Source: Aurantiochytrium sp. KH105 (lineage: Eukaryota > Sar > Bigyra > Thraustochytrida > Thraustochytriidae). From it: a DNA stretch of 64,000 nt. The stretch lies in NCBI GenBank assembly GCA_003116975.1, contig BGKB01000004.1, positions 62,001 to 126,000 of the forward strand. The letters run 5' to 3'. Made by a program: the position numbers and the translations under genes. A model generated the notes under the pieces. The model was given only the letters and a program-made list of their open reading frames with translations. It did no database searches and was not told the DNA's origin. Shown piece after piece: positions 18,031-39,782 of the stretch (positions are counted from its first letter, which is position 1; each line of letters begins with the position of its first letter).

Positions 18031-18586
18031 CGTGGCGCGGCTTTTCACAATCTACTGGCGGCCGTCCGCGGAGAACGAAGCGTCGGGACACCGCCGTTCC
18101 GTGAAGCAGGCCGGCATCGGCATCGGCATCGGCAGCGAGGGCAACGTTACGTACTACCGCTTTGGGCGGCGGCGGCCAGCCAGCGCCTCCTTCCTTCTTT
18201 CTCCCCCTCCCTCTTTCCTTCCTTCTTTTTTTTTCTTTCTTCCTCTCTGCGCCGGCAGCTCGCGCGCCTTTGCTTTTCCTTTCTTTCCTTTCTTTTTATT
18301 TTATTTTATTTTATTTTACTTTCTGCTGGCCGGCTGGCTGGTCGCAGAGAAATGAAAGACTGGAGCTCGCTCCGACTTGCGGGCGCGCGAAAGTTGATTT
18401 GTCCCGGGCGGGGCAAGTCGAAAGGTTAGGTTAGAAGTTCGTTTGGCGTCATCATCGGTGATTACGTTTCGAAAAAAAGTTTCATTCCTGATTTGGACTT
18501 GGTTGACTTTCCGTCCGCAGCGCAGGCAGAGGCGAAAGGCACGCGCGGGACGGAGACCGGCGCCGCGCCCGGCCGAGCGCGCGAGG

Positions 18587-18650
18587 ATGGCGCCGCACGT
18601 GCAGAGCGCCACGGCGGTGACGCGGGTGGTGGCGACGCCGAAGCAGCCCC

Positions 18651-18681
<31 letters not shown>

Positions 18682-19816
18682 GCTCGAGAGCGGCAAGCAT
18701 GAGTGCGCGCGGCGCAAACGGTACGAAGCACAAGGACGGCGGCCGCCGACCGCCGCCGAGGAGGCCCTCGCGAACCTCCTGGGCCTGAGGTACTACGAGG
18801 ACCTCCGGACGCTCATGTTCTGCTGCGTGTATTTTACCCTCGTCGGACTCCAGCTCAAGTACGAGGTCCCCTTCCGAAGCGCGCGCTTCCTCGTCTTCTG
18901 GCTCACGGCCTTTGTCTCCTTTCAAGGCGCCGTCACCGTGCACAACGCTGTGCACTGCCCAATCTTCAAGCAAACGTGGAAAAACCAAATCTTTCAGACC
19001 GTCCTTTCCGTCTGGTTTGGCCACTGCGCATCCTCGTACGTGCCCGGCCACAACCTGAGCCATCACCGGAACCTTCAGACCAACAAGGATGTGATGCGCA
19101 CGACCAAGATGAAGTTCAGATGGAACTTTCTCAACGGCTTGCTCTTCATGCCCACCATCCTCATCAGCACGTCGGCCAACGACGCTGCCTACTTCAATGC
19201 CCAGGCGACACTTAAAAGGCCCATCTACTACCAGCTGCGTTTCGAGGCACTCGTCTATGTCAGCTTTCAGCTACTCGTGGCCTCCGTGAGCCCGGAAAAG
19301 TGGCTTTTCGTCTGCTGGCTCCCCTGCCTCATTGGCAAGTATGGCATCATCTCGCTCAACATGCTGCAGCATGACGGAGTCGACACCGAGTCCAAGTACA
19401 ACCACAGCAGGAACTTTGTCGGCCCCATCCTCAACTACTTTTGCTTCAACAATGGCTACCATGGTATCCACCACATGTTTCCCGGCAAGCACTGGTGTCT
19501 GCTCAAGCATGAGCACGAGACGCGTGTCAAGCCCCACATTCACCCGAATTTGGACCAGGACAACATTTTCGCCTTCATGTTCGAGCAGTTCATTTACCCT
19601 GGCAAGCGCATTGATTATTTGGGCAACCCTGTGCCCATCATCGATGACGGTCCCGATGAGCCCTGGTTCTATTCTACCACAGAGACGTGGTCTGACCGCG
19701 ACGTCGATCCGCGCGTCTGGTCCAAGAAGATTAACCAGTACGGACCTGACGGAAAGCCTGCGGGGCCAGTGGGCGGTATGGCCCCTCGTGCGGCCAAATC
19801 GTACACGACCATGTAG
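18587..19816 (+). CDS. Membrane fatty acid desaturase-like protein
   Basis: 409 residues from the ATG at 18587 (MAPHVQSATAVTRVV), in an aggATGg context; the frame is open further upstream only from TTG. Three histidine clusters of the membrane di-iron desaturase/hydroxylase superfamily are present: HNAVH near residue 119, GHNLSHHRN near 154, and NNGYHGIHHMFPGKHW near 289. An extra QHDG/NHSRN segment lies between. Hydrophobic segments flank them (LMFCCVYFTLVGL, FLVFWLTAFVSF, WLFVCWLPCLIGKYGIISL). The spacing and the HxxHHxxPGxHW block fit FA_desaturase proteins. Substrate and regiospecificity cannot be read; no cytochrome b5 domain is fused. A poly-Gln run (residues about 22-32, CAG repeat) precedes the domain. 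A role in lipid unsaturation suits the suspected oleaginous host, but that is inference. Confidence 0.82.
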
Positions 19817-23785: not shown

Positions 23786-25549
23786 TCAGGAATCTCGCAG
23801 GAGCTGGAGTCGACCGCCAGCGAGAATGGCAGCGACGCGAGCATGAGCAGCGATCGGCGAGTGCACAAGTCCCAATGTCTCGATTAATTCTTGCTCATCA
23901 TCACTTCGTAGAGGCACCGAACTAGGCTCCGGGGCAGAGGCTCGAATGCGAGAGACATCCGCAGAGGCGAGGTCGATGGAGTCCTTGCCGCGACTAGCCC
24001 AGTCGTAAATGTACAGCTGCCCATCCTCTGCTGCAGCACAAATGCGCGAAGGCTCGTCTTGTGCGCAGCAGCTAAACGTGAAGCGAGTGCGATCGTTCGG
24101 ACACGTGAGATCAACTCTTGCAAAAGTCATCTTTTCCCCTTGCGCAGGCCCCACCAGCAGTGAGATCCTAGCCGATTGCGCGCAAGCGACCAGCACAGGA
24201 CGCCCTCCGCCCCATGCACACGTGTCAAGTCCACTCACGGGTCCATCGAGCGTAAATTCAATCACAACTTGCGCTGAGCGCGCATCCCAAACAATAACCT
24301 TGTGGTCGCTGGACCCTGCTGCGACATAGGCATCGTCGCCCGCCACAAAGCACACCGCATTGACCTGCGCTTGCGGCCCGCGTAGCGTTTGGATCGCATT
24401 GCCAGTCTCAGCGCTGAAAATTCTTACCGTATGATCTCCGCCGCCCGTCACAATCCGATTTCCTGTCGAAGAAAACCGCACGCAGTTCACAGGCACCTTG
24501 CCGTGCGCACGTTTGATACGCGTTACGCGCTTGCCACTCGCAACATCCCACACAATCACCGTTCCGTCCAGACTTGAGCTGGCGAGATACTTGCCGTCGC
24601 GACTCCAATCGAGACCGAGAACAGCCTTTTTGTGCATCATAATGTCATTCTCTTGCTGATACACCAGGTCTTTGCGCAAGAATCCACGCGCAAGGTCATA
24701 AATCTCGATAAAACCGTCAGCGGTTCCCGTAGCGATACTCTTTCCATCCCACGAGATGCATGCCGCATTCAGTGTCACATCCTGGCCCATTGTAATCTTT
24801 GCATATGCCTCAAGCAACCTTTTCTTGCCTCCAGACTCAAGCTGCTTTGCATCGATATCGTCATTGCCGACCCCGATAAGGCCTCGCTTTCGCGCGCGTT
24901 TTAGCTGTGCCGCAAGCGTCTCTTGGCTGCCAGAGAAGAGAGAAGGCGAACGACGTTTTCGTTTCTTGCTATCCTTGCGCTTGCGCCCCTCGTCGCCGTC
25001 CTTGTCATTGGCCTCAATGCGGTCCAGCTCTCCTCGAAAAGCGAGCGCTTGGCCAAGCAGCTGAAGAAGCTGTGAGGGTCCCGCCTCCGTCAAACACGCG
25101 CACACACTCCGTGCTAGCGTACTCAGCGCGCGAGCGCGCTCCCCTTTCGCAAGCTGATCGCGTCGCCGTCGCGCCGCGCTGTGCCGATTGTGGACCAAAT
25201 TTTGTAACTCGTCAAAACGAGCCCCATTCTCTTTCTTCAAAGCTTCGAGATCTTCGCTGTCGCGCAAAATCTCCTTGGCTGCACCTTCCTCGCCACGTTC
25301 TACGAGGTCCGCGAGAATCCCCTCGTACAGGCTCCACATGACACTACGAGGGAGCTGGCACTGATTGAGGCTGGAGAGTAAGGTGGCCCAATCCTTTGCT
25401 TCGATCAATGCGCCAATCTTCATCACGTCCGGGACCACATTCAAACGCACGTCTGCCTCGCTTTCAAGCGTGCGCGCTGTCTTCTCCAAACCGCTCTCCA
25501 CGAGGAATTGGAGCACCACGCGGAGCACTTCGTTGGCGTCGACCTCCAT
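23786..25549 (-). CDS. SMU1-like spliceosomal WD40 protein
   Basis: 587 residues from the ATG at 25549 (MEVDANEVLRVVLQFLVESG); the open frame upstream is Arg/Ser/Ala filler. Residues 5-38 form a LisH motif (FLVESGLEKTARTLESE) and about 40-95 a CTLH-like helical region (IGALIEAKDWATLLSSLNQC). A Lys/Arg linker near 245-255 precedes WD40 repeats from about residue 280 (AVLGLDWSRDGKYLASSSLD, GKVPVNCVRFSSTGNRIVTG, AQVNAVCFVAGDDAYVAAGS). SMU1 works with RED in B-complex activation of the spliceosome. Length exceeds the usual ~510 because of insertions in the linker and the last blades (ARSVCACLTEAGPSQLLQLL; the C-terminal Ser/Pro-rich tail). Confidence 0.88.
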   Translation of the reverse strand: MEVDANEVLRVVLQFLVESGLEKTARTLESEADVRLNVVPDVMKIGALIEAKDWATLLSSLNQCQLPRSVMWSLYEGILADLVERGEEGAAKEILRDSEDLEALKKENGARFDELQNLVHNRHSAARRRRDQLAKGERARALSTLARSVCACLTEAGPSQLLQLLGQALAFRGELDRIEANDKDGDEGRKRKDSKKRKRRSPSLFSGSQETLAAQLKRARKRGLIGVGNDDIDAKQLESGGKKRLLEAYAKITMGQDVTLNAACISWDGKSIATGTADGFIEIYDLARGFLRKDLVYQQENDIMMHKKAVLGLDWSRDGKYLASSSLDGTVIVWDVASGKRVTRIKRAHGKVPVNCVRFSSTGNRIVTGGGDHTVRIFSAETGNAIQTLRGPQAQVNAVCFVAGDDAYVAAGSSDHKVIVWDARSAQVVIEFTLDGPVSGLDTCAWGGGRPVLVACAQSARISLLVGPAQGEKMTFARVDLTCPNDRTRFTFSCCAQDEPSRICAAAEDGQLYIYDWASRGKDSIDLASADVSRIRASAPEPSSVPLRSDDEQELIETLGLVHSPIAAHARVAAILAGGRLQLLRDS

Positions 25550-25953
25550 CCTGGCAGGTCGACTGATTGTGCAGCTCACTCGTCCGCCTCCCGTCCAGGC
25601 AGCGCCGCGGCCGACGGAGGGGCAGGTGGGCAGCCGACCGGCGGGCGAGCGAGCGGGCGAGCGAGCCGATGCACGGGACGCTCTTCTTTCTGCAACACAG
25701 CAGTCGAAGGTCTGATTGAGCTCATCGTCCCAGATGACGGCCACTCAAACCTTCTATTGTTCAAGCTAGACCTTTGTGGACGTCAATATCATAAATACGC
25801 TTTGTTGACGCTTGGGGCATCTGATCCTGCTGTAGGCCTAGGCCTAGGTAGAGGCGACAAGGGGAGCCTCCGAATCGTGACACGATTCATTATAGGCCTA
25901 AAGTGAAAAACAATGAAGGACAAACATAAACATATTTTGGGGAGTTGCCTTCC
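25550..25953. other. Intergenic region upstream of SMU1
   Basis: Separates the SMU1-like start from the stop of the giant membrane protein. Carries taggcctaggcctagg at 25833-25848 and taggccta at 25893-25900. No ORF. Confidence 0.65.
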
Positions 25954-28900
25954 TTACACATCAATGTTACGACCGCTGCCGCCAACAAAGCTCGGGTTAC
26001 GACTGGAAACCTCCGAACTCTGGCTGCGATTGCCAGAGAAGAAGCTGCTTCCGAGAGAAGCGTCGTACTCGTCAATGCCACGGAATTCATTGTATCCATC
26101 GTCATCGTTTGCATCAACAAAGACGGCCGGCGCAACTTGGCCATCACGTACCGACGGGTACGATGAGAACGAATTGTGCTGCGCCGCACGGATTCGCGAA
26201 ACAGGACGCACGCTGTTGCGAAGAAGAAATGCAGAAGGCCAGCGACCCTCGACGAGCTTGGGACACACACCGTGCTTGTCAAGGCGGTTGCGAATCTGCC
26301 AGGTGCGGTCATTGAGCGCAGCGCGAATCATGCGGAAGACGTAGAACTCGGTGCATAAGAGCATGAAGATGCCGCCAATCAAGACTGCTGAAGTGCCCTC
26401 GATGACTGCCACCACATCAAAGCAAAGGGCATCTTCCTCCGAGAGACCGATAAATAAAAGTGGCTCCACAATGTACTCGCAAGCATCTCCCGTGCCAGAC
26501 TCGACAATGAATTGTGCCAGCTGCGACACCTCGAGAGCAGCGGCAACAATTGCAACAAGCAACACCAAAAGAGCCTCCCATGCAGCCACAATCTCCGCCG
26601 AGAAGAGTAGTGTGCGCTGCTCGCGCTCGTGCAGCGGCACATAGAGAAGAATAAGTAGCAGCAGACAGAGAACGATGGGCGCCACCAGCGTGAAGAGAAC
26701 GTAGACAATCTGCAAGAAAGCAACCGCCAGCTGCGCCACAGCGTCATCGCTCGGAACGCCTTCACTGATGGCCGTGGCGATACCCACAGAGGTGTAGCTT
26801 CGGCGTTGCAGCTCGGGCTGCAAGACACCAATCATTGCGCCTGCGATGCCCTTGTAGGTAAAGGAGATGAGGTTGAGGAAAGATCCCACGAGAATCAAAA
26901 GTCCCGAAATACACACGAGGCCACCTGCCGCGAGCTTAGCGCCTGGGCTAAAGCCATACAAAAGGTTGCGCTCGTCTGGAACGAGAAAGACGTGGCGGTG
27001 CAGCGCCTGCTTGGCGACGGTAATAGGCTCCGTATTGAGATCATTGAGTTTGTCCTCGAGATCCTCATCCTGCGCAATTACGCTGCGATGCTTGGCAATC
27101 ATGTATTGATTCACCACGAGGGCGAGCATCGTTGCAATCACAAACAGGTAGATGCTGAGACCTGGCTCAACAATGACGTCCACAATAAAGACGTCGTCAG
27201 GCAAGAAGTCGAGCTGCGCAACATATGTCGAGGTAATGTAGAACCGAAAAGCCACCTGCAACATCACCAGAACGTAGGCATCAATGAGACTCCACTTGCC
27301 CAGCGAATCGAGGACCTCAAGCACGCTACCGCGACGTTTGTGGCTCAGTAGCGTCGGCGGCGTGAACCATGCCACCAGAAGCAGGACCGACTTGGTGTGC
27401 GGCCATGCGCCCGAGGCAACGAAGATGATGAGCGCCAGCGGGTATGTTCCGGCGTTCCACATATCATTGATCGAGGAGGCCAGCGTAAACTGAAGGATCG
27501 GCAGCGACTGCGTGGTGTCACCAGCGATGCTCATCGTGAGCTTGACCGTGGCGCCAACCGTTCCAATGTTTGCGGCGATAAAAAGTGCCACGGCAACGAG
27601 AATGAAAAAGGGCACCGCAAATTTGGGAACAGTCGAGACCAATGGGTGCCGAAACATTGACGAGAGACGTCGTTCCACAAGAAGAAGATCCTCACCCTTG
27701 CCGGAGAGATCGCCATTGCTCTTTTCTTGCAGGCGATTGAAAGCCAGAAACATGAGCTGATTCCGCCTGCGTGCGTGGAGGGGCATCAGAAAGAGACCCG
27801 CAGCAATGGCACCTCCCAAAATACCCACTCCGGCGTACCCCATAAGCGAGGCTGCATCTGTGAGCTCCTGCTTCTCGAGAGGATCAAAGGTGAACTCAAT
27901 GCCGGTGCACTCGCGGCGTGCCGTCGCAATGGCCAGATCGACGTATTCCTGGGCATCGCTTTGGCCTGCAAGGGCGGTCACCGCCTGCACGATCGTGTTG
28001 AAACCCTCCGTGAGATCTGCGGACGCACGATCATCCGTGATGGCACCTGCATCCTGCAAGGCCTCCAGCATGGGCGACGTGCACTCGCCCTCGCAGCGAG
28101 CGGTCAGACGCACCTGCTCCGCGGTAAAGTTGAAATCTTGAATGCGCAGGCCCTCTTCGTCGAAGATGGACAAAAGGCAGGGAACGTTGCTCGGCTTGTA
28201 GTACAGATCGAGCAGATTGCCCAGACGCAAATCGAGAAACTGCTGAATATCTATGCGGTGGAGCAGGTCCAGGCCAAAGTCCAAATTCGTCAAACGCATA
28301 CCCATGCGAAGCTCGTTCTTCACAAAGCGTGTCTCTTCGAGGGCGCGGCTCTGGCCACGCACGAGCGAACGGTCTTGGTGTTCCTGCTCCTCTTCAAAGA
28401 AGGAGGCGGATGAAGAAACAGAGACATCGTTACCACCGCCACCACCGGCGCCAGGGGCCTCAAGAAGCTGGCGGCGTCGTCTGCCACCGCCGCTCTTTTC
28501 GACGAAAAGATCATCGAATTCGTACGTGAGCGCAAAAGAGACCTCCAGAGCGCCTCGCGTTGTGAACGCAGTTGTTGTTGTGTACGGGTTTCTATAGGTG
28601 TAGTCGGTCGTGTCAAAGAGGCGCAGTTTGGTTACTTCTGCGGCTCCCTCGGCGCCCGTGCCAAGTCCCTCAAATTGAAAGTCGCCCACATACCACGTTG
28701 CCAGACCGAGACTGAGGCCATTATAGTACAGCTCGGTTGCGTTGAAGAGATCAAAGACACCCACTTTGACCTCGTTCACATATCGATCGAGCATCTTGTT
28801 GATATTGATGGAAGACACCGGGTTGAGTAGGTCAACTTGAATGAGCTCCTTCATCCTCGGCGGAAACGTTGAGGCGGAAAAGTTCATAAAGCGGCCCGTC

Positions 28901-31900
28901 ACATTGTAGTCCGGGTACTCGACGCCTGTACAGTCCTCCTTGAGCTTGGCCTCGCTCACAATCAAGTCAAGTTCTGCATTGATCAAATCGCGCACGGGAC
29001 CCTGCGTAAAGTTGGGCACTTGCTTGCGGAAGACGGCGACCAAGAGCTCGACGAGAAGTTCCACGACATCCCTGGCTTCTTGCGAGAGGAAACTACCGTT
29101 GGTGGTAATGTCAGGTCCGTAGACGTCGGGAACGTACGCCTGGAATTGCGGGACAAAGAAACCTCCCTCGTACATGAGGCGCTTGATGGTGCAGTTGAAG
29201 GCATCGGCGCGAATACCAAACGAGTTGGTGGTCTCATTAAAGTAAATGATCTCGCCCATTTGGACAAGAGACAAGTCTGTCTGGTTTACGGCCGCGGCGA
29301 AGAGCGCTTCGAGCGAGACGTTGCCGAGCTGGAGGACAACGTCAACATCGTCGTGGAGAACATCATCCGGCCCAGCCGAGGCGTTAAAGACGATAGCCGC
29401 TGTCTCGAGCTCAAAACCAAAGTTGAGTTCGATCAGATTGTCGCCCCACTCAAAGGTGTGCTGTGTTGTGAACTTGGCCTCATCTCCCTCGTCGCTCGTG
29501 TACGGCTTGAGCACGTCCACGTTGGTGAGACGGTCGACGTTTCGCACGACAATGTCCTTGAGCTTGAAGTTGAAACCTGGAATCAGACCTTCCGTGTCTG
29601 GCTCGTAGTTGTACGAGCTCATGTCCAGGCGGAGGGTGGTGCTGTTGTCCGCCTCAAGCTCAAAGACCTTGTACAGCGGGTCGAGGATCGACGGATAACG
29701 CGGATCTGCCACCGTGCGCGCCAGGTCCTGCAGCGTGAGCTGTAGCGACTCCGCCGTGATGGAGGCCGAGAGTGCAGCAATGTATGCATTGTTCTCACCC
29801 GTCAAATCATACACGGGCTCATTGTTGACCACAGGGCGCTCCCACGAGGCCGGATCGTCGCCACGCGGGTTCGGCTGCTCCGTGGTTCCTTGGCGCAGAA
29901 AGTCGCTGATATCGCCAAGACTCGGTAGCGGAAGCGCCGAGGCAAAAATCGTCCCGTTAAGCGGGTCCGTCTGGGTCAGACACTCGCTTCGCGTGTACGG
30001 AGGGTCGAACTCGGTGTTGAACAACTTGATCGTCTCGTTCTGGACGCGATCGATGACGTAGTTGAGAAAATACTCGATCGTGTCCTGGTACTCGTTGGTC
30101 TGAAGCTTTTGGTTCCAAGCCTCGAAGGCAGCGCCGATGCGATAGGCGGTGAATTCCTGCGGACCGTTCGGGAAAACAAAGCCATACGTGTAGTCGTTGA
30201 CGTTGATCTCAAACTGGTCGAGCGAATGCGACTCGAGTACGGCCAGCAGACACTGAAGCGTGAGCAAATTGCCGATCTCGGACTGGAACACCTCGTTCTT
30301 GAGCACTTCAAGACCCAGGACGCCGGAAAATTCGAGCTGCAGCTCGAGACGGATGGCAAAGTCCTCGTCGGCCCACTTTTGTCCCGAAACAGAGGCATCG
30401 AGCGAGATTGGGAGCTCAAAGCCGAGGTAGCCAACTTGGGCAACGCTGCCGTTTTGAAGATTGACGGTGCCGTCGCCCCAGGTAAACTCAAAGTTCATCG
30501 CGTAGTCGTCCGTGGGCGCAGGCTGCAGCAAAAAGCGCCAGATCGAGTTGAGATCTGTGACGCGGAAGGGACCCACGTCGATGACAAAAATGTCTCCGCC
30601 GTATTGCTCCGAAACAAGAATCGTCGGGAAAGCCTCCCAGGTGCCATCGGACGGGTTCTCAAAAATGTACGCCGAATCCGGATCATTGTTGATGGCGCCT
30701 TCTGGACGATCAAAGACCAGGTATCGAAGCGTCGCCTGAATGAGCGCGTTGATGTCAACCGAGTTGCGGAGAATTGGGTCACCGCCAATGAGATTGTCGA
30801 CGAGGTTCTTGACCGCATCGATCGCCAGCGTGTCGGTGAGGTTGAAGAAACGATCGTTGCCCGCGTACGTGAGGGGCACATACGATGGGCACACGGGCGG
30901 CGCGTCAACAAAGACAGTATTGTCGAGGTAATCATTGAGCTGCGGGCGGACGTAATTCTCCAGAATATACGGAAAGTCGTTGGCAAAGGTTGGCTTGAAC
31001 AGCGTGTTGACCACGTCCATGACGTCGAGAATGAGGGCGTTGAGGTCGAAAAAGTTGACGACGGAGAAGTCCTCGAGCACGTCGGCCGAGCCTTGGAGAC
31101 CGCTGACGCGGAAATGATCAAAGGTAGTGAAAGCACAGCGCAAGACGTCCATTCCTGCAAAATTCTCGCCCACGAGCTGTCCGACCTGGAGCGCAAAGAG
31201 TTTCTCTTGCTGGAAAAGCTGGTACGAGGTGATCTCCATCTCGAGGCCTTGGAAGCCGATGCCGGTGCCAAAGGTGAAACGTTCCAGTGTCGTTTTGCTT
31301 GTCTGCATCCAGTCTCCAGGCCGCATCTCAATGTCCCATGTCAGATCAAAGCGAAAGTTGGCAAGACGGAGATTGGTCACTGCAGTGTGTTCATATGGAG
31401 TGCCAAACTGGTCAGGATTGGCGAAACCGTTGTCGAAGATCTGAAAGTTGTCAAACTTGTTGATGTCGGTGAGCCGGAAGCCAATGAGCCGGAGCGAGTT
31501 GCGCGTGATGAGTTCACCAAATTCCACCATGGGATAGTCATCGAGCTCAAAGTACTCCTTCAGGTCCGCAATCTCGTAAACGCCCGTACCGTCGGTGAGA
31601 ATGCTGACCACCTCGTTGATGGTGAGGTCGTTGTGGTAGCCCGTCTCGCTCGACTCTCCGCCAAGGTAGTCGTTGAGCCCAACGGAGATGGCCTCGAAAA
31701 TTTCATTTGTGCGAAGGCTGGCCCAGGTGCTCGGGTCCTCGAGGTTCGGCAGGCGGCCCGGGTTGAGGGATTCGTCCTGCTCGAACTCCGTACGCCCACG
31801 AAGACCGGCAGCCTTGTAGCCGGCGACATCGTTTGAGATCTCCTCGATGAACTCGTTGCCTGGACCCAGCGAGCCGTCGTCTGCGTACGCGGAGTTGCGA

Positions 31901-32802
31901 GCGAGGTTGCACATGATTTGTTCGAGAATGGCTTGGATAGTATTCATGAGGATGTCGATAACGGGCTGGACGATCCAGCTTGGAATGTCACCGACAGAGG
32001 TGTTCTCCAGACTAAAGCCGTCTGAGATGGAGAATCTGCAACCAGACTCGTCGTCCAGAAAGTCGAAGCGAGTAGGCGGCGAATAGTCAAAGTCTGGCGA
32101 GAAGAAGTTCATCGCAAAGGAGGCCCCGATGCCTCCCTCCTCGGCGCTCATCTCATTCTTGCGAAGGTAGACCTCAGTATTTCCTGTCACGGTAAAGTAA
32201 AAATTGCCAAAAATCGGCACTGGAATGCCGAGACGCATATCTTCGAAGCGAAGGCGCCCGAAGCAGTTGACCTTGAGGTCATTGATGCCTGCGTTGACGC
32301 GCTGCACATCCTCGCCGCTGACCCGGCTCAGCGCTCCAAGCGAGAGGTCCACATAGTCGACCTGAGCGTTGTCGCACCTTAGGTCATAGAGCCAGAAATC
32401 ACCGTCGGACACGATATCGCCGATTCTCCGCGTAAAGGTCAACCACAAGTAGGAGATCTCCACTTCGGTGTTCTTGACCCAGTTCGGCATATCCTCTGCG
32501 GACGCGTAGCATGAGTCGCTGTAGCTCGGGCATGGGCCCGGGTTCGTGCCGAACTGGATGCCGGCGAGCGCCGCATTGAGCTTTACGAAATCCTGTTGTA
32601 CCACGAGTTTGCGTCTCTCCTTGGCCGGGTCGCTCCTCGCCGCGGCCTCCTCAGCCGGGTCCTCGTAGCGCACGCGGACCTCGGCCTGGGACGTATCGAA
32701 TTCCAGGGCTTGCGATTGCGCCGCCAGCGTCGTAGCCAGCACCGCGACGACGGCCAGCACGACCCGTCCCGCGGCGCTCGCGACGCTCTTCACGCGTGCC
32801 AT
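25954..32802 (-). CDS. Giant secretory-pathway protein: tandem TULIP-like luminal modules fused to a PqiA/LetA-like membrane domain
   Basis: 2282 residues, ATG at 32802, no intron. A signal peptide (residues 1 to about 30) leads into about 1600 luminal/extracellular residues with at least 15 N-x-S/T sequons. Five related modules can be traced (about 75-310, 424-640, 737-940, 1077-1290, 1370-1630); each has alternating amphipathic strands, a GNLL-like turn, long helices and a closing Cys (CNLA, CPSY, SECL, DCTG, ECTG). This fold pattern resembles TULIP/BPI lipid-binding proteins. From about 1650 there are about nine membrane spans. The block MWNAGTYPLALIIFVASGAW, ending before GKWSLIDAYVLVML, matches the PqiA/LetA (PF04403) core, and a second, weaker half follows (about 1960-2200). 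PqiA/LetA proteins pair with MCE proteins in bacterial lipid transport. RRRR near 1440 could be a furin-type site. The PqiA assignment is fairly firm; TULIP is pattern-based; the transport role is inference. Confidence 0.78.
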   Translation of the reverse strand: MARVKSVASAAGRVVLAVVAVLATTLAAQSQALEFDTSQAEVRVRYEDPAEEAAARSDPAKERRKLVVQQDFVKLNAALAGIQFGTNPGPCPSYSDSCYASAEDMPNWVKNTEVEISYLWLTFTRRIGDIVSDGDFWLYDLRCDNAQVDYVDLSLGALSRVSGEDVQRVNAGINDLKVNCFGRLRFEDMRLGIPVPIFGNFYFTVTGNTEVYLRKNEMSAEEGGIGASFAMNFFSPDFDYSPPTRFDFLDDESGCRFSISDGFSLENTSVGDIPSWIVQPVIDILMNTIQAILEQIMCNLARNSAYADDGSLGPGNEFIEEISNDVAGYKAAGLRGRTEFEQDESLNPGRLPNLEDPSTWASLRTNEIFEAISVGLNDYLGGESSETGYHNDLTINEVVSILTDGTGVYEIADLKEYFELDDYPMVEFGELITRNSLRLIGFRLTDINKFDNFQIFDNGFANPDQFGTPYEHTAVTNLRLANFRFDLTWDIEMRPGDWMQTSKTTLERFTFGTGIGFQGLEMEITSYQLFQQEKLFALQVGQLVGENFAGMDVLRCAFTTFDHFRVSGLQGSADVLEDFSVVNFFDLNALILDVMDVVNTLFKPTFANDFPYILENYVRPQLNDYLDNTVFVDAPPVCPSYVPLTYAGNDRFFNLTDTLAIDAVKNLVDNLIGGDPILRNSVDINALIQATLRYLVFDRPEGAINNDPDSAYIFENPSDGTWEAFPTILVSEQYGGDIFVIDVGPFRVTDLNSIWRFLLQPAPTDDYAMNFEFTWGDGTVNLQNGSVAQVGYLGFELPISLDASVSGQKWADEDFAIRLELQLEFSGVLGLEVLKNEVFQSEIGNLLTLQCLLAVLESHSLDQFEINVNDYTYGFVFPNGPQEFTAYRIGAAFEAWNQKLQTNEYQDTIEYFLNYVIDRVQNETIKLFNTEFDPPYTRSECLTQTDPLNGTIFASALPLPSLGDISDFLRQGTTEQPNPRGDDPASWERPVVNNEPVYDLTGENNAYIAALSASITAESLQLTLQDLARTVADPRYPSILDPLYKVFELEADNSTTLRLDMSSYNYEPDTEGLIPGFNFKLKDIVVRNVDRLTNVDVLKPYTSDEGDEAKFTTQHTFEWGDNLIELNFGFELETAAIVFNASAGPDDVLHDDVDVVLQLGNVSLEALFAAAVNQTDLSLVQMGEIIYFNETTNSFGIRADAFNCTIKRLMYEGGFFVPQFQAYVPDVYGPDITTNGSFLSQEARDVVELLVELLVAVFRKQVPNFTQGPVRDLINAELDLIVSEAKLKEDCTGVEYPDYNVTGRFMNFSASTFPPRMKELIQVDLLNPVSSININKMLDRYVNEVKVGVFDLFNATELYYNGLSLGLATWYVGDFQFEGLGTGAEGAAEVTKLRLFDTTDYTYRNPYTTTTAFTTRGALEVSFALTYEFDDLFVEKSGGGRRRRQLLEAPGAGGGGGNDVSVSSSASFFEEEQEHQDRSLVRGQSRALEETRFVKNELRMGMRLTNLDFGLDLLHRIDIQQFLDLRLGNLLDLYYKPSNVPCLLSIFDEEGLRIQDFNFTAEQVRLTARCEGECTSPMLEALQDAGAITDDRASADLTEGFNTIVQAVTALAGQSDAQEYVDLAIATARRECTGIEFTFDPLEKQELTDAASLMGYAGVGILGGAIAAGLFLMPLHARRRNQLMFLAFNRLQEKSNGDLSGKGEDLLLVERRLSSMFRHPLVSTVPKFAVPFFILVAVALFIAANIGTVGATVKLTMSIAGDTTQSLPILQFTLASSINDMWNAGTYPLALIIFVASGAWPHTKSVLLLVAWFTPPTLLSHKRRGSVLEVLDSLGKWSLIDAYVLVMLQVAFRFYITSTYVAQLDFLPDDVFIVDVIVEPGLSIYLFVIATMLALVVNQYMIAKHRSVIAQDEDLEDKLNDLNTEPITVAKQALHRHVFLVPDERNLLYGFSPGAKLAAGGLVCISGLLILVGSFLNLISFTYKGIAGAMIGVLQPELQRRSYTSVGIATAISEGVPSDDAVAQLAVAFLQIVYVLFTLVAPIVLCLLLLILLYVPLHEREQRTLLFSAEIVAAWEALLVLLVAIVAAALEVSQLAQFIVESGTGDACEYIVEPLLFIGLSEEDALCFDVVAVIEGTSAVLIGGIFMLLCTEFYVFRMIRAALNDRTWQIRNRLDKHGVCPKLVEGRWPSAFLLRNSVRPVSRIRAAQHNSFSSYPSVRDGQVAPAVFVDANDDDGYNEFRGIDEYDASLGSSFFSGNRSQSSEVSSRNPSFVGGSGRNIDV

Positions 32803-36461: not shown

Positions 36462-39400
36462 TTACAAATTGTCCTCATCAAACACAAAGGGAAAACGAAA
36501 GAGATCGTCGCGACCAATTTGCGTGTGTTTAACGCGCAAATATGGCTCCCCCACAGGCAGCGACGAGTTTGCCAGCCACTGTCGACATTGTACGAGCTGC
36601 TGTCGACGCTTTGCTCGCGCTTTACGCGATGGCGTGTACGCTTGATCGTAGTTATCCGAGTGTAAATAGTCGAAAAGAGCCTGTGTCATGCGCTTTGCTT
36701 CTTCAGGAAACTCCCCGAGAACGCTCGTCATCTCGGCTGGATCGGCCTCGAGGTCGTATAGCTCGATGGGGTCCAGCTTCCGAGGAATCGCCTGGCGCGG
36801 ATCACGAGGTTCTGCATAAAGCTTGAAACGTCCTCTTCGAACTGCGAAGCGCGCACTGTGGGCCATGCAGTCCGCTCCATGAGCCCATCCTCGAAACTCA
36901 AAGAGAAGACTACGATCCTCATTGGCCGAGAAAAGGTCGACACCTTCAACGGCGCTTGTTAAGCTGGCATTGAGTGAAATGCCCGCATACCGAGCCACCG
37001 TTGGCAAAATGTCTGCCGTCATTCCAGGTCGGGACCACAGCGTATTTGCGGCAAGCCCAGGGCCGCGCATCACAAGCGGGACACGAAGCCCTCCTTCGTA
37101 CAAGGAGCGCTTGCCGCCACGAAAAGGCCCTGCAGACCCTTGGCTCGCAAAGTAGACACCCGCATTTTCAGGACCGTTGTCCGATAGGTAGACAATGAGT
37201 ACATCATCGCGCAAGCCCTGGCTGTCTATCCAGTCGACAAGACGCCCAACTTGCTGGTCATGGTCCTTCAAGAGAGCGCGGTAAATTTGCAGTGGCAAGT
37301 GTGGGTCTGCTGCCTCATTTGGAAATCGTTCCTTCTCAACAAGGGAAGCAAATTGTCGTTCTGGAAACGGCAGCTTGGCAAACCCGAGGCCAAGTTCACG
37401 TGCCTGCTGGCCGTCTTCAGCCAGGTTAAGCGGCGCATGCGCGTTCTGAAACCAGACATTGACGAAGAACCTTTCCTTGCGTTCGACACGTGCACGTAAG
37501 AACTCAATTGCCTGCGTGACCAAATCGCGTTGAATATGCGAAGCAAAGTACATATCGTTGTGCTCGTATGTGGCCGAGCTCGGTAGCACTCCTTTAGAAG
37601 CCGAATACACTTTGGCTTCGTCGATGCCATACGATGGATGCAGAGGCGACCGATGGGCCTCGGTTTTGGGCAAGTTGCCAAGGTGCCACTTGCCAAAGTG
37701 ACCCGTGACAAAGCCTGCCTCGCGGAAAAGCCTACTAAGATACACGTTGGGACGCGCACGTGGGACAATCGGGTCCTGCAATGGTGCTTGCGCATTCGTG
37801 GGCGGTTCATCCGTGGCTGCGCCCAGATATGGCGTCACGCCAAAATATTCGCTCTCTGCTGCCGAAGTTGCTGTCTGCCAGTGCATCGCCACAGCGCTGT
37901 GAAACGGGTATCGACCCGTCATCAGCGAGGCGCGCGTTGGCGAGCAAACCGCCGCATTGGCATAAAAGTTGGAAAACACCACCCCCTGACTCGCGAGTCG
38001 ATCCAAAGATGGAGTGTTTGGTCGGAAAACAGAACCCCCAGCGCGGTTCATGTAGCTGTCGTCGTTGTCGTGAGGCTCACTTTGTACAGGGGCATTGAAA
38101 CCGGACAGGTCACCAAATCCCAAGTCGTCCGCAAGCATGATGATGATACCACGTACGTTTTTCTGTGCAGCCCTCGCTTTGTTTTCTTGGGCGGAAGTCA
38201 TTTTTTGTCGTGTGGAAAAGGCAGCCTCAAAGTGCTCCCGACAGCTACCTCGCACGCTCGCGCGTGGTGTTGTATCAGGGTACATTTCCGCGTGCCATGT
38301 TTGGAGACCTGCAATGTGATGAGCGGCTATACTTTGCAGTTTGGACACCTTGACGAGATTGGCTCGCTCGTAGTGGCCCTGGTGTGCCGCACCTTCGTCA
38401 TGAACTCGGTAAAGCTCCACATGCAATGGGTTGGATACATTGCCGAGTTCGCTCGGCTCGAGGAAAAGTTTGTATTTGTGGTCATACATGATGGCGAGGC
38501 GCGGCGCCACCTCGATGCAATGGCTGTCCGGCGTGGGCTCTCGCCACTCCCAAACGAGCGGGGCACGCCGTAAAGGGAGAGATCCTGGCCCTAAAAAATA
38601 AGCCGAGTGGTCGATGCCGTCTCGTTCGGCCGATCCCTTTAACGTCGGTATTCCGAAAAAGGATACACATGTGGGTGCCCAATCAAGAGCGCTCACGAGA
38701 TGCGGTCGGCTCTGAGGCGTGTGAGTGACCACGGATGGGCTCGTCCAGACCAGAAATGGCACGCGAATACCGCCATCGTAAAGCGAACGTTTTTTGCCTC
38801 GATAGTGCGTGCTTCCAGCGGCGTGGCCATAGATTTCGGGAGTCTCGGGTCCATTTGTGCTCGAAACCGCGGCCAGAAACGGGACGTTTGGCGCCGTTGC
38901 AAAGAGTGTGTCGATTACATTCCCAACGAGCTCGCGCTCTCTGCGTTTGTTCGCTCGATGAATCATGCGAGGACATGATTTGTATCGATGAGGATGCGTT
39001 GTGCGTCTGCGAATGTCGCGGCAGGTGGGTGAATCGTCCGAGACGCCAGGCTCGCGCTCGAGCAGCTCGCGCGCCCAAGATCCGGATTCGAAGGCGAGAT
39101 CAACGGGCGGGAGCCACACTTGTGCATAGAATCGTTGATTCGCATCTACGCAGCGCTTAATAAAGTGCTGTGCTGCGCGCACAGCTTGCTGCGCGTCTGC
39201 CGTGATGAGATGGTCGTCGGTGTCCGCGGCAATGTCAGAAGGGAGATCCCAAGTTCCAAAGTGGCCAACTTTGACATTGGCGGCGCGCAGTGTTTTCAGT
39301 AGCGCGTTGTGATCCGCTGGTATAAGCGAGTAGTCAGAAATATCTTGGGCGTGAAGCGTACCATGGCGGGAGGGATGCTGGCCCGTGATCCAGGCAAGCT

Positions 39401-39782
39401 GGGATGGAACCGTGTCGGGGCTGGCGACACGGAAACTCGTATACGACGTTGGTCGTGAACTTGTGATGTTTTTCCCTCGTGGAATTGCAGCGGGGCCCTC
39501 GGCCGCAAGGTCACCGGTGCCAACGTCTGGTAAGAGGACTAAAAGCACGCCGTCCAAGGTTTGGCTTGACTGAGAGGATGGAGCTTGGGCGTCGTGCCCT
39601 TGCAATTCAGAAAAGATTCCAACGAGGGTAATGTTGTCAAGCGCTTGGGCTTGTCGCCACCGAATGAGACAATCAATCAGCACGACGACCGCAAAGCCGA
39701 GGAGGATGGTCACGCACGTGCGGCGTTTGACGCGTTTTCCACCCGCATCCTTTTCGAATGGCGCGACTTTGGCGAGGCGCAT
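36462..39782 (-). CDS. Double sulfatase: degenerate N-terminal and intact C-terminal sulfatase domains, type II membrane anchor
   Basis: 1106 residues, ATG at 39782. A basic start followed by TCVTILLGFAVVVLIDCLI (about 22-40) predicts a type II signal anchor, as in Golgi or cell-surface enzymes. The C-terminal domain (about 540-1080) has the sulfatase signature CSPTRASLMTGRYP with Cys613 for formylglycine conversion, metal ligands in MLADDLGFGD and LSDNGPE, and GHFGKWHLG. The N-terminal domain (about 75-510) aligns but is degraded: TVPSQ replaces CSPTR (Thr124 for Cys), LLPDVGTGD loses one Asp, SSTNGPE replaces SDNGPE, and GHFGTWDLP replaces GHFGKWHLG, while GKKRSLYDGGIRVPF is kept. Only the second domain is expected to hydrolyse sulfate esters, likely of a polysaccharide; substrate not readable. 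Convergent with the U-box gene, 232 bp away. Confidence 0.88.
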   Translation of the reverse strand: MRLAKVAPFEKDAGGKRVKRRTCVTILLGFAVVVLIDCLIRWRQAQALDNITLVGIFSELQGHDAQAPSSQSSQTLDGVLLVLLPDVGTGDLAAEGPAAIPRGKNITSSRPTSYTSFRVASPDTVPSQLAWITGQHPSRHGTLHAQDISDYSLIPADHNALLKTLRAANVKVGHFGTWDLPSDIAADTDDHLITADAQQAVRAAQHFIKRCVDANQRFYAQVWLPPVDLAFESGSWARELLEREPGVSDDSPTCRDIRRRTTHPHRYKSCPRMIHRANKRRERELVGNVIDTLFATAPNVPFLAAVSSTNGPETPEIYGHAAGSTHYRGKKRSLYDGGIRVPFLVWTSPSVVTHTPQSRPHLVSALDWAPTCVSFFGIPTLKGSAERDGIDHSAYFLGPGSLPLRRAPLVWEWREPTPDSHCIEVAPRLAIMYDHKYKLFLEPSELGNVSNPLHVELYRVHDEGAAHQGHYERANLVKVSKLQSIAAHHIAGLQTWHAEMYPDTTPRASVRGSCREHFEAAFSTRQKMTSAQENKARAAQKNVRGIIIMLADDLGFGDLSGFNAPVQSEPHDNDDSYMNRAGGSVFRPNTPSLDRLASQGVVFSNFYANAAVCSPTRASLMTGRYPFHSAVAMHWQTATSAAESEYFGVTPYLGAATDEPPTNAQAPLQDPIVPRARPNVYLSRLFREAGFVTGHFGKWHLGNLPKTEAHRSPLHPSYGIDEAKVYSASKGVLPSSATYEHNDMYFASHIQRDLVTQAIEFLRARVERKERFFVNVWFQNAHAPLNLAEDGQQARELGLGFAKLPFPERQFASLVEKERFPNEAADPHLPLQIYRALLKDHDQQVGRLVDWIDSQGLRDDVLIVYLSDNGPENAGVYFASQGSAGPFRGGKRSLYEGGLRVPLVMRGPGLAANTLWSRPGMTADILPTVARYAGISLNASLTSAVEGVDLFSANEDRSLLFEFRGWAHGADCMAHSARFAVRRGRFKLYAEPRDPRQAIPRKLDPIELYDLEADPAEMTSVLGEFPEEAKRMTQALFDYLHSDNYDQAYTPSRKARAKRRQQLVQCRQWLANSSLPVGEPYLRVKHTQIGRDDLFRFPFVFDEDNL

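Follow-up and report, generated by a model that had tools for sequence, protein, structure and literature searches.

A single-exon gene of the PqiA family in the window

The window, that is, the whole stretch of 64,000 nucleotides from Aurantiochytrium sp. KH105 that was analysed, contains one uninterrupted open reading frame encoding 2282 amino acids on the minus strand, lying at exactly the position (25954-32802) given for it in the first-pass annotation. The parts of the encoded protein, with residue numbers in parentheses, are as follows.

25954..32802, minus strand: whole open reading frame, 2282 aa, single exon; an intact allele lies on contig C55
32710..32802, minus strand: hydrophobic N-terminus, probable signal peptide (residues 1-31), by hydropathy
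31753..32505, minus strand: predicted luminal domain M1 (residues 100-350), no detectable similarity to M2-M5, marginal likeness to a BPI-type profile
30838..31752, minus strand: predicted luminal module M2 (residues 351-655), repeat of M4
29917..30837, minus strand: predicted luminal module M3 (residues 656-962), repeat of M5
28903..29850, minus strand: predicted luminal module M4 (residues 985-1300), by profile comparison and genome search
27883..28902, minus strand: predicted luminal module M5 (residues 1301-1640), repeat of M4, with a low-complexity insertion inside
27778..27834, minus strand: membrane span 1 after the luminal part (residues 1657-1675), by hydropathy, followed by a basic, presumably cytosolic linker
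27031..27633, minus strand: PqiA/LetA-like half 1 (residues 1724-1924), by Pfam at 1771-1848 and profile matches to LetA halves
26296..26973, minus strand: PqiA/LetA-like half 2, degenerate (residues 1944-2169), by profile matches to LetA halves and to its own half 1
25957..26295, minus strand: C-terminal tail, presumably cytosolic from its position past the last span (residues 2170-2282)

The genome assembly (76 Mb, 367 contigs) evidently comprises two haplotypes, and the second-haplotype copy of the gene on contig C55 likewise has 2282 codons, with 25 amino acid differences. Comparison of the two alleles gave 145 synonymous and 25 non-synonymous changes, for a dN/dS of 0.050. Four long relatives in the same genome are collinear with the window protein over 2,072-2,132 aligned residues at 24-25% identity, and a fifth, L018, aligns over 1,345 residues at 22% identity. 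A single frame of such unusual length might be taken for an assembly or gene-call artefact, either a chance open frame or joined genes, but the intact allele with its low dN/dS, the four relatives collinear with the whole chain and the long alignment with L018 refute this reading, to which we give practically no credence, and indicate that the frame is a real gene. A hydropathy peak at residues 10-32 is compatible with the signal peptide proposed earlier, as far as simple hydropathy goes.

The gene is adjoined by an open frame for a 652-aa WD40 protein (window 23786-25744, minus strand), which we take to resemble the splicing factor SMU1. Also present in the window are a sulfatase domain (PF00884, E = 2.8e-52) in a 1106-aa open frame (36462-39782, minus strand) and, about 6 kb off, a fatty acid desaturase (PF00487, E = 1.1e-23; 18443-19816, plus strand) with no sign of a link to the PqiA-fusion gene.

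The membrane part and its homology to PqiA/LetA

Past residue 1650, seven regions exceeded the hydropathy threshold, and two further spans in the PqiA core correspond to helices at model residues 143-169 and 195-219 of an AlphaFold model of modest confidence, which together agree with the nine or so membrane spans counted in the first-pass annotation. Pfam placed the PqiA family (PF04403) at residues 1771-1848, with E = 1.7e-9 and a score of 38.2 bits (cut-off 23.8). The PqiA/LetA motif blocks quoted earlier are present within this match, and nothing but PqiA scored above the cut-off in the whole window protein. Relatives of the protein scored up to 54.4 bits for the same family. A six-relative profile searched against the PDB retrieved the solved LetA (YebS, 9n8w) at E = 0.0012, and profile-profile comparison (hhalign) of the membrane part with 12 bacterial LetA proteins gave E = 5.7e-11. 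In a tblastn search against plasmid records, the membrane part matched 27 records, every one at less than 60% identity; the five of the 27 that were listed are annotated as PqiA/YebS or paraquat-inducible protein A, with a best E of 2e-6 among them. These four comparisons agree on the PqiA/LetA identity that had been proposed for the C-terminal part, and tblastn and hhalign detect the homology without the Pfam model. The six-sequence membrane profile found no relatives when run against bacterial and archaeal genomes and viral contigs.

Half 1 of the membrane core matched the second half of LetA at E = 7e-13 and the first half at 1e-7, while half 2 gave weak matches to both LetA halves (1e-4 and 3e-4). 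Compared with each other, half 1 and half 2 of the window protein's core matched at 5e-4. By these profile comparisons, the membrane core consists of tandem LetA-like units, the second one degenerate. A permuted order of the LetA halves, with half 1 fitting LetA half 2 best, is not claimed, since the two scores of half 2 do not separate.

An AlphaFold model of the membrane domain (mean pLDDT 52.5, pTM 0.42, pLDDT of at least 70 at 79 of 551 residues) returned LetAB (9n8w) as its top Foldseek match, with a probability of 1.00 and E = 0.0098 and with no match at E ≤ 0.001; this result is supportive, but the model is not independent evidence of a LetA fold, because its input alignment included LetA rows. 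Claudins and TARP-containing chains followed LetA and made up much of the 50 matches listed, at E values of at least 0.12. The structural work on LetAB is said to have noted a likeness of LetA to TARPs.

Among the 13 gene representatives of the family in this genome (see below), the P..K block is kept in all 13 and the KW[SC]xxD block in 12, L020 being the one that departs. The cysteine list of residues 1646-2282 contains no CxxC zinc ribbons, whereas at least two CxxC motifs are present in 80 of 80 fetched bacterial ORFs, a comparison set made up of the best 80 of 533 loci confirmed in a LetA-based alignment scan of genome contigs. Three of these loci, L080, L083 and L095, have their first half out of frame in alignments A9 and A10 and were left out of A11 and A12. 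Given the absence of zinc ribbons, we would file the protein in the PqiA family in the broad sense (PF04403) and not as a bacterial-type LetA/PqiA.

The predicted luminal domains

Self-comparison of the six-sequence profile revealed repetition with a two-module period (E = 1e-16). Profile-profile comparison among M2-M5 matched M2 to M4 (E = 3e-14), M4 to M5 (1e-8), M3 to M5 (2e-7) and M2 to M5 (1.5e-5), with M3 reaching only 0.006-0.06 against M2 or M4. Since one row of the original M3 profile came from L018's first domain, which belongs to the M1 type (E = 0.005 to M1), the comparison was repeated without L018; the repeats were then weaker and still significant (M2/M4 3e-11, M4/M5 4e-5 to 2e-4, M3/M5 1e-4, M2/M5 5e-5 to 2e-3), and M3 scored 0.01-0.06 against M2 or M4. 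M1 (residues ~100-350) gave no match to any of M2-M5 in profile-profile comparison (E 0.12-0.68). The five recurring modules described in the first-pass annotation are thus four that repeat one another and one that matches none of them: M2-M5 (residues ~351-1640) form a single repeat family, to which M1 is not detectably related. A single-sequence search of the genome with M4 found 14 places, all within PqiA-bearing ORFs, while a search with the L018 modules recovered nothing beyond these modules and their allele, their tie to the other modules coming through profile comparison alone.

Each of the M2-M5 modules contains one cysteine pair, occupying two columns that are invariant in 18 of 18 module sequences and spaced 87 residues apart in M4, and M1 contains four cysteines invariant in all five aligned sequences. 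Of the 18 N-glycosylation motifs, 17 fall within residues 1-1645, a region that accounts for 72% of the chain and also contains 16 cysteines. The invariant pair and the bias in N-glycosylation motifs fit an oxidising, luminal or extracellular location for this part of the protein.

The same modules had been proposed to be TULIP-like, and profile matches to TULIP families were sought in several ways, with none found. Pfam LBP_BPI_CETP gave no match at E ≤ 10 for the whole protein, the 18 module sequences or the five M1-type domains (23 domain sequences), and no TULIP family was found by Pfam at E ≤ 10 in five relatives, three of them module-bearing. Sequence and profile searches of the PDB with the whole protein, all modules, M1, module pairs and L018 returned nothing named as a TULIP or lipid-transfer protein. 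The best PDB match of the modules, a Toxoplasma PCR11 chain at E = 0.052, was taken as chance. An AlphaFold model of M4 built from a three-row alignment was discarded at a pLDDT of 30.7, and a home-made estimate of secondary structure was too crude to be used as evidence.

A marginal likeness was seen for the M1 family. With L018 included (alignment A13), one of seven profiles tried, it matched a BPI-type profile along the length of M1 at E = 0.032 (hhalign), a score that one of 400 shuffled profiles also reached, as did at least one of 40 in another shuffle run. The six other profiles, those of M2-M5 included, scored no better against this small profile than shuffled or reversed controls, and without L018 the reversed BPI-type profile (E 0.08) came out ahead of the true one (0.2) for M1. 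The BPI-type profile consisted of three sequences, namely BPI and LBP fragments and the BPI-like domain of a protein from the same genome, L024, whose BPI-like nature was assigned from a PF01273 match below the cut-off (E 0.006) and a PDB match to BPI at E 0.03. L024 (contig C147) and L025 (contig C96) have a 1258-aa open frame with this BPI-like domain and with C-terminal repeats that look by eye like PDZ domains.

Of the fusion of PqiA and TULIP parts that the first-pass annotation had envisaged, the PqiA half is upheld by the four comparisons above, but the TULIP half drew no match from Pfam or the PDB and no usable model of M4, and only M1 is marginally BPI-like. We lean towards TULIP-like luminal modules mainly because a fusion of CETP/BPI and PqiA domains has published precedent (PMC5507252). 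The same paper describes, for BPI-N, a disulphide between the fifth and sixth elements, to which the invariant cysteine pair of the modules may or may not correspond.

Gene family, possible function and known systems

Across the genome, PqiA was matched 36 times, in 26 ORFs that can be paired as alleles of about 13 genes. The window gene was tested for allelism and C13/C197 showed it (96%); the other pairs were assigned from similar length and score, and some of them differ in open length (2282 vs 1908, for example). Luminal modules are present in six of the 13 representatives, namely the window gene, four genes with open frames of 2,258-2,465 residues, and L018, in which an M1-like domain is combined with two modules (best E 4e-5 and 4e-7). 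On both haplotypes (contigs C17 and C36), three of the long module-bearing genes are neighbours, with no more than 17-18 kb between their PqiA matches and pairwise identities of 55-87%. No modules were detected in the other seven representatives (35 profile comparisons, best E 0.049). Three of these, L014, L015 and L017 (contigs C90, C18 and C20; ~620-790 residues), have a cysteine-rich stretch, not module-like, separating the first span from the PqiA core; in L016 and L020 (contigs C10 and C193), each with two PqiA matches, an extra multi-span stretch at the N-terminus takes the place of the modules; and L019 and L021 have other or short N-termini. The multi-span stretch of L016 and L020 looks claudin-like by eye, with a GLW motif in L016. 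The seven representatives without modules suggest that the membrane domain works in other contexts too. An exon-wise six-frame search of the genome, which is possibly incomplete, found no match to MCE/MlaD (PF02470) at E ≤ 0.01, with 4 of 14 control genomes positive, and Pfam found no MCE/MlaD match in the window protein.

Given a real gene with these parts in this order, PqiA/LetA homology, luminal repetition, no zinc ribbons and no MCE match, we consider it on balance probable that the product is a single-chain lipid-transfer protein of the secretory pathway or cell surface. The LetA/PqiA-like domain, with its tandem halves and one extra span before them, would move lipid out of or into the lumen-facing leaflet, in a direction and with an energy source that we can only infer, and its LetA-like core would exchange this lipid with the membrane-proximal luminal domain, M5. 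From M5 towards M1, lipid may be passed along or held by a rod of luminal domains, the far end of which could contact another membrane, a lipoprotein-like particle or lipid from the environment, and the rod would do the job of the separate MCE protein of bacteria (PqiB/LetB). The PqiA homology, the repeats, the cysteine pair with the glycosylation bias, the confinement of the modules to PqiA ORFs, the absence of an MCE match and the published precedent for both the fusion and a lipid ligand (PMC5507252) all argue for this reading. It is weakened by the lack of a lipid-binding fold match for the luminal part, with M2-M5 at control level against the BPI-type profile, by the seven of 13 family members without modules, and by the bacterial Pqi pathway itself being only "putative".

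The same lack of lipid-binding matches in Pfam and the PDB would be expected if the luminal domains were adhesive or ligand-binding ectodomains and the PqiA-like part a membrane scaffold, like the four-helix proteins of the claudin/TARP type. The claudins and TARPs that follow LetA in the Foldseek list point the same way, as do the claudin-like-looking stretch of L016 and L020 and the cysteine-rich stretch of L014, L015 and L017. However, the signature residues of LetA/PqiA are retained, which a mere scaffold might not need, and the review passages on the fusion tie it to CETP/BPI domains (PMC5507252), and we regard this alternative as unlikely. Another account, possible if somewhat doubtful, is that of a lipid uptake receptor, in which domains facing the lumen or the outside pick up lipid from the environment or from prey, in the manner of BPI and LBP, and pass it inward via the PqiA-like domain without bridging two membranes. 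A family of about 13 genes, three long ones adjoining on C17 and C36, would suit uptake, and so would the host's way of life, since the genome gave no match to chlorophyll-binding proteins at E ≤ 0.001 and the host is therefore probably heterotrophic; yet the data do not distinguish import from export. The chances of uptake overlap with those of the single-chain lipid-transfer protein, as it is the same explanation with a fixed direction.

The single-chain lipid-transfer protein can be taken further, although we offer this extension tentatively: the protein may be a eukaryotic, MCE-free counterpart of LetAB on one polypeptide, in which the pump loads lipid directly into an attached five-domain conduit, the family having expanded with varied attachments (module rod, cysteine-rich or claudin-like multi-span), and lipid would travel between the surface or secretory membranes and a target some tens of nanometres distant. 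If so, eukaryotes took over a bacterial intermembrane lipid pump and rebuilt the bridge from other parts, and one could then test which features of LetA make up the pump and what the tunnel contributes. With pump and rod on one chain, the questions of partner and stoichiometry that attend multi-part bacterial systems would fall away. Even without lipid-carrying modules, the PqiA membrane domain would be a reusable unit in a eukaryote.

PMC10897342 describes bacterial PqiA as one of three components of a trans-envelope system, the others being the MCE protein PqiB and the lipoprotein PqiC; it terms the Pqi pathway a putative phospholipid transport system and leaves its energy source open. The window protein resembles bacterial LetA (YebS)/PqiA in the profile homology of both halves, in its tandem units and in the conserved P..K and [GR][KR]WSxxD blocks. 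Unlike them, it has no CxxC zinc ribbons and, by the genome search at E ≤ 0.01, no separate MCE partner, and it has an extra span ahead of the core and luminal domains that are covalently joined. The likeness to LetB/PqiB lies in the proposed role only, that of a repeated rod extending from the membrane domain; LetB and PqiB are MCE proteins, whereas neither the window protein (Pfam) nor the genome (E ≤ 0.01) gave an MlaD-family match.

The closest precedent is eukaryotic. The first-pass annotation knew of no described eukaryotic protein with this architecture, which was mistaken, since Wong and Levine (2017; PMC5507252) had already noted, in protists and amoebae, CETP/BPI (TULIP) proteins with a C-terminal PqiA domain as their anchor and had inferred a lipid ligand common to both parts, which is the same functional inference. 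Among the matches listed, this was the only text with the phrase "PqiA domain"; the open-licence literature yielded no text on PqiA together with stramenopiles and no experiments on a eukaryotic PqiA fusion. As described in that source, the CETP/BPI-PqiA fusions share with the window protein a eukaryotic host, N-terminal non-cytosolic domains, a C-terminal polytopic PqiA domain and the proposed function. By the same description, most CETP/BPI members have two TULIP units (PMC5507252), whereas the window protein has a luminal part of ~1,600 aa with four mutual repeats and one further domain. The type of fusion is thus already in print, and what the present analysis adds to it is the multi-module luminal part with its clear repeats, the loss of the zinc ribbons, the absence of an MCE match and the size of the gene family.
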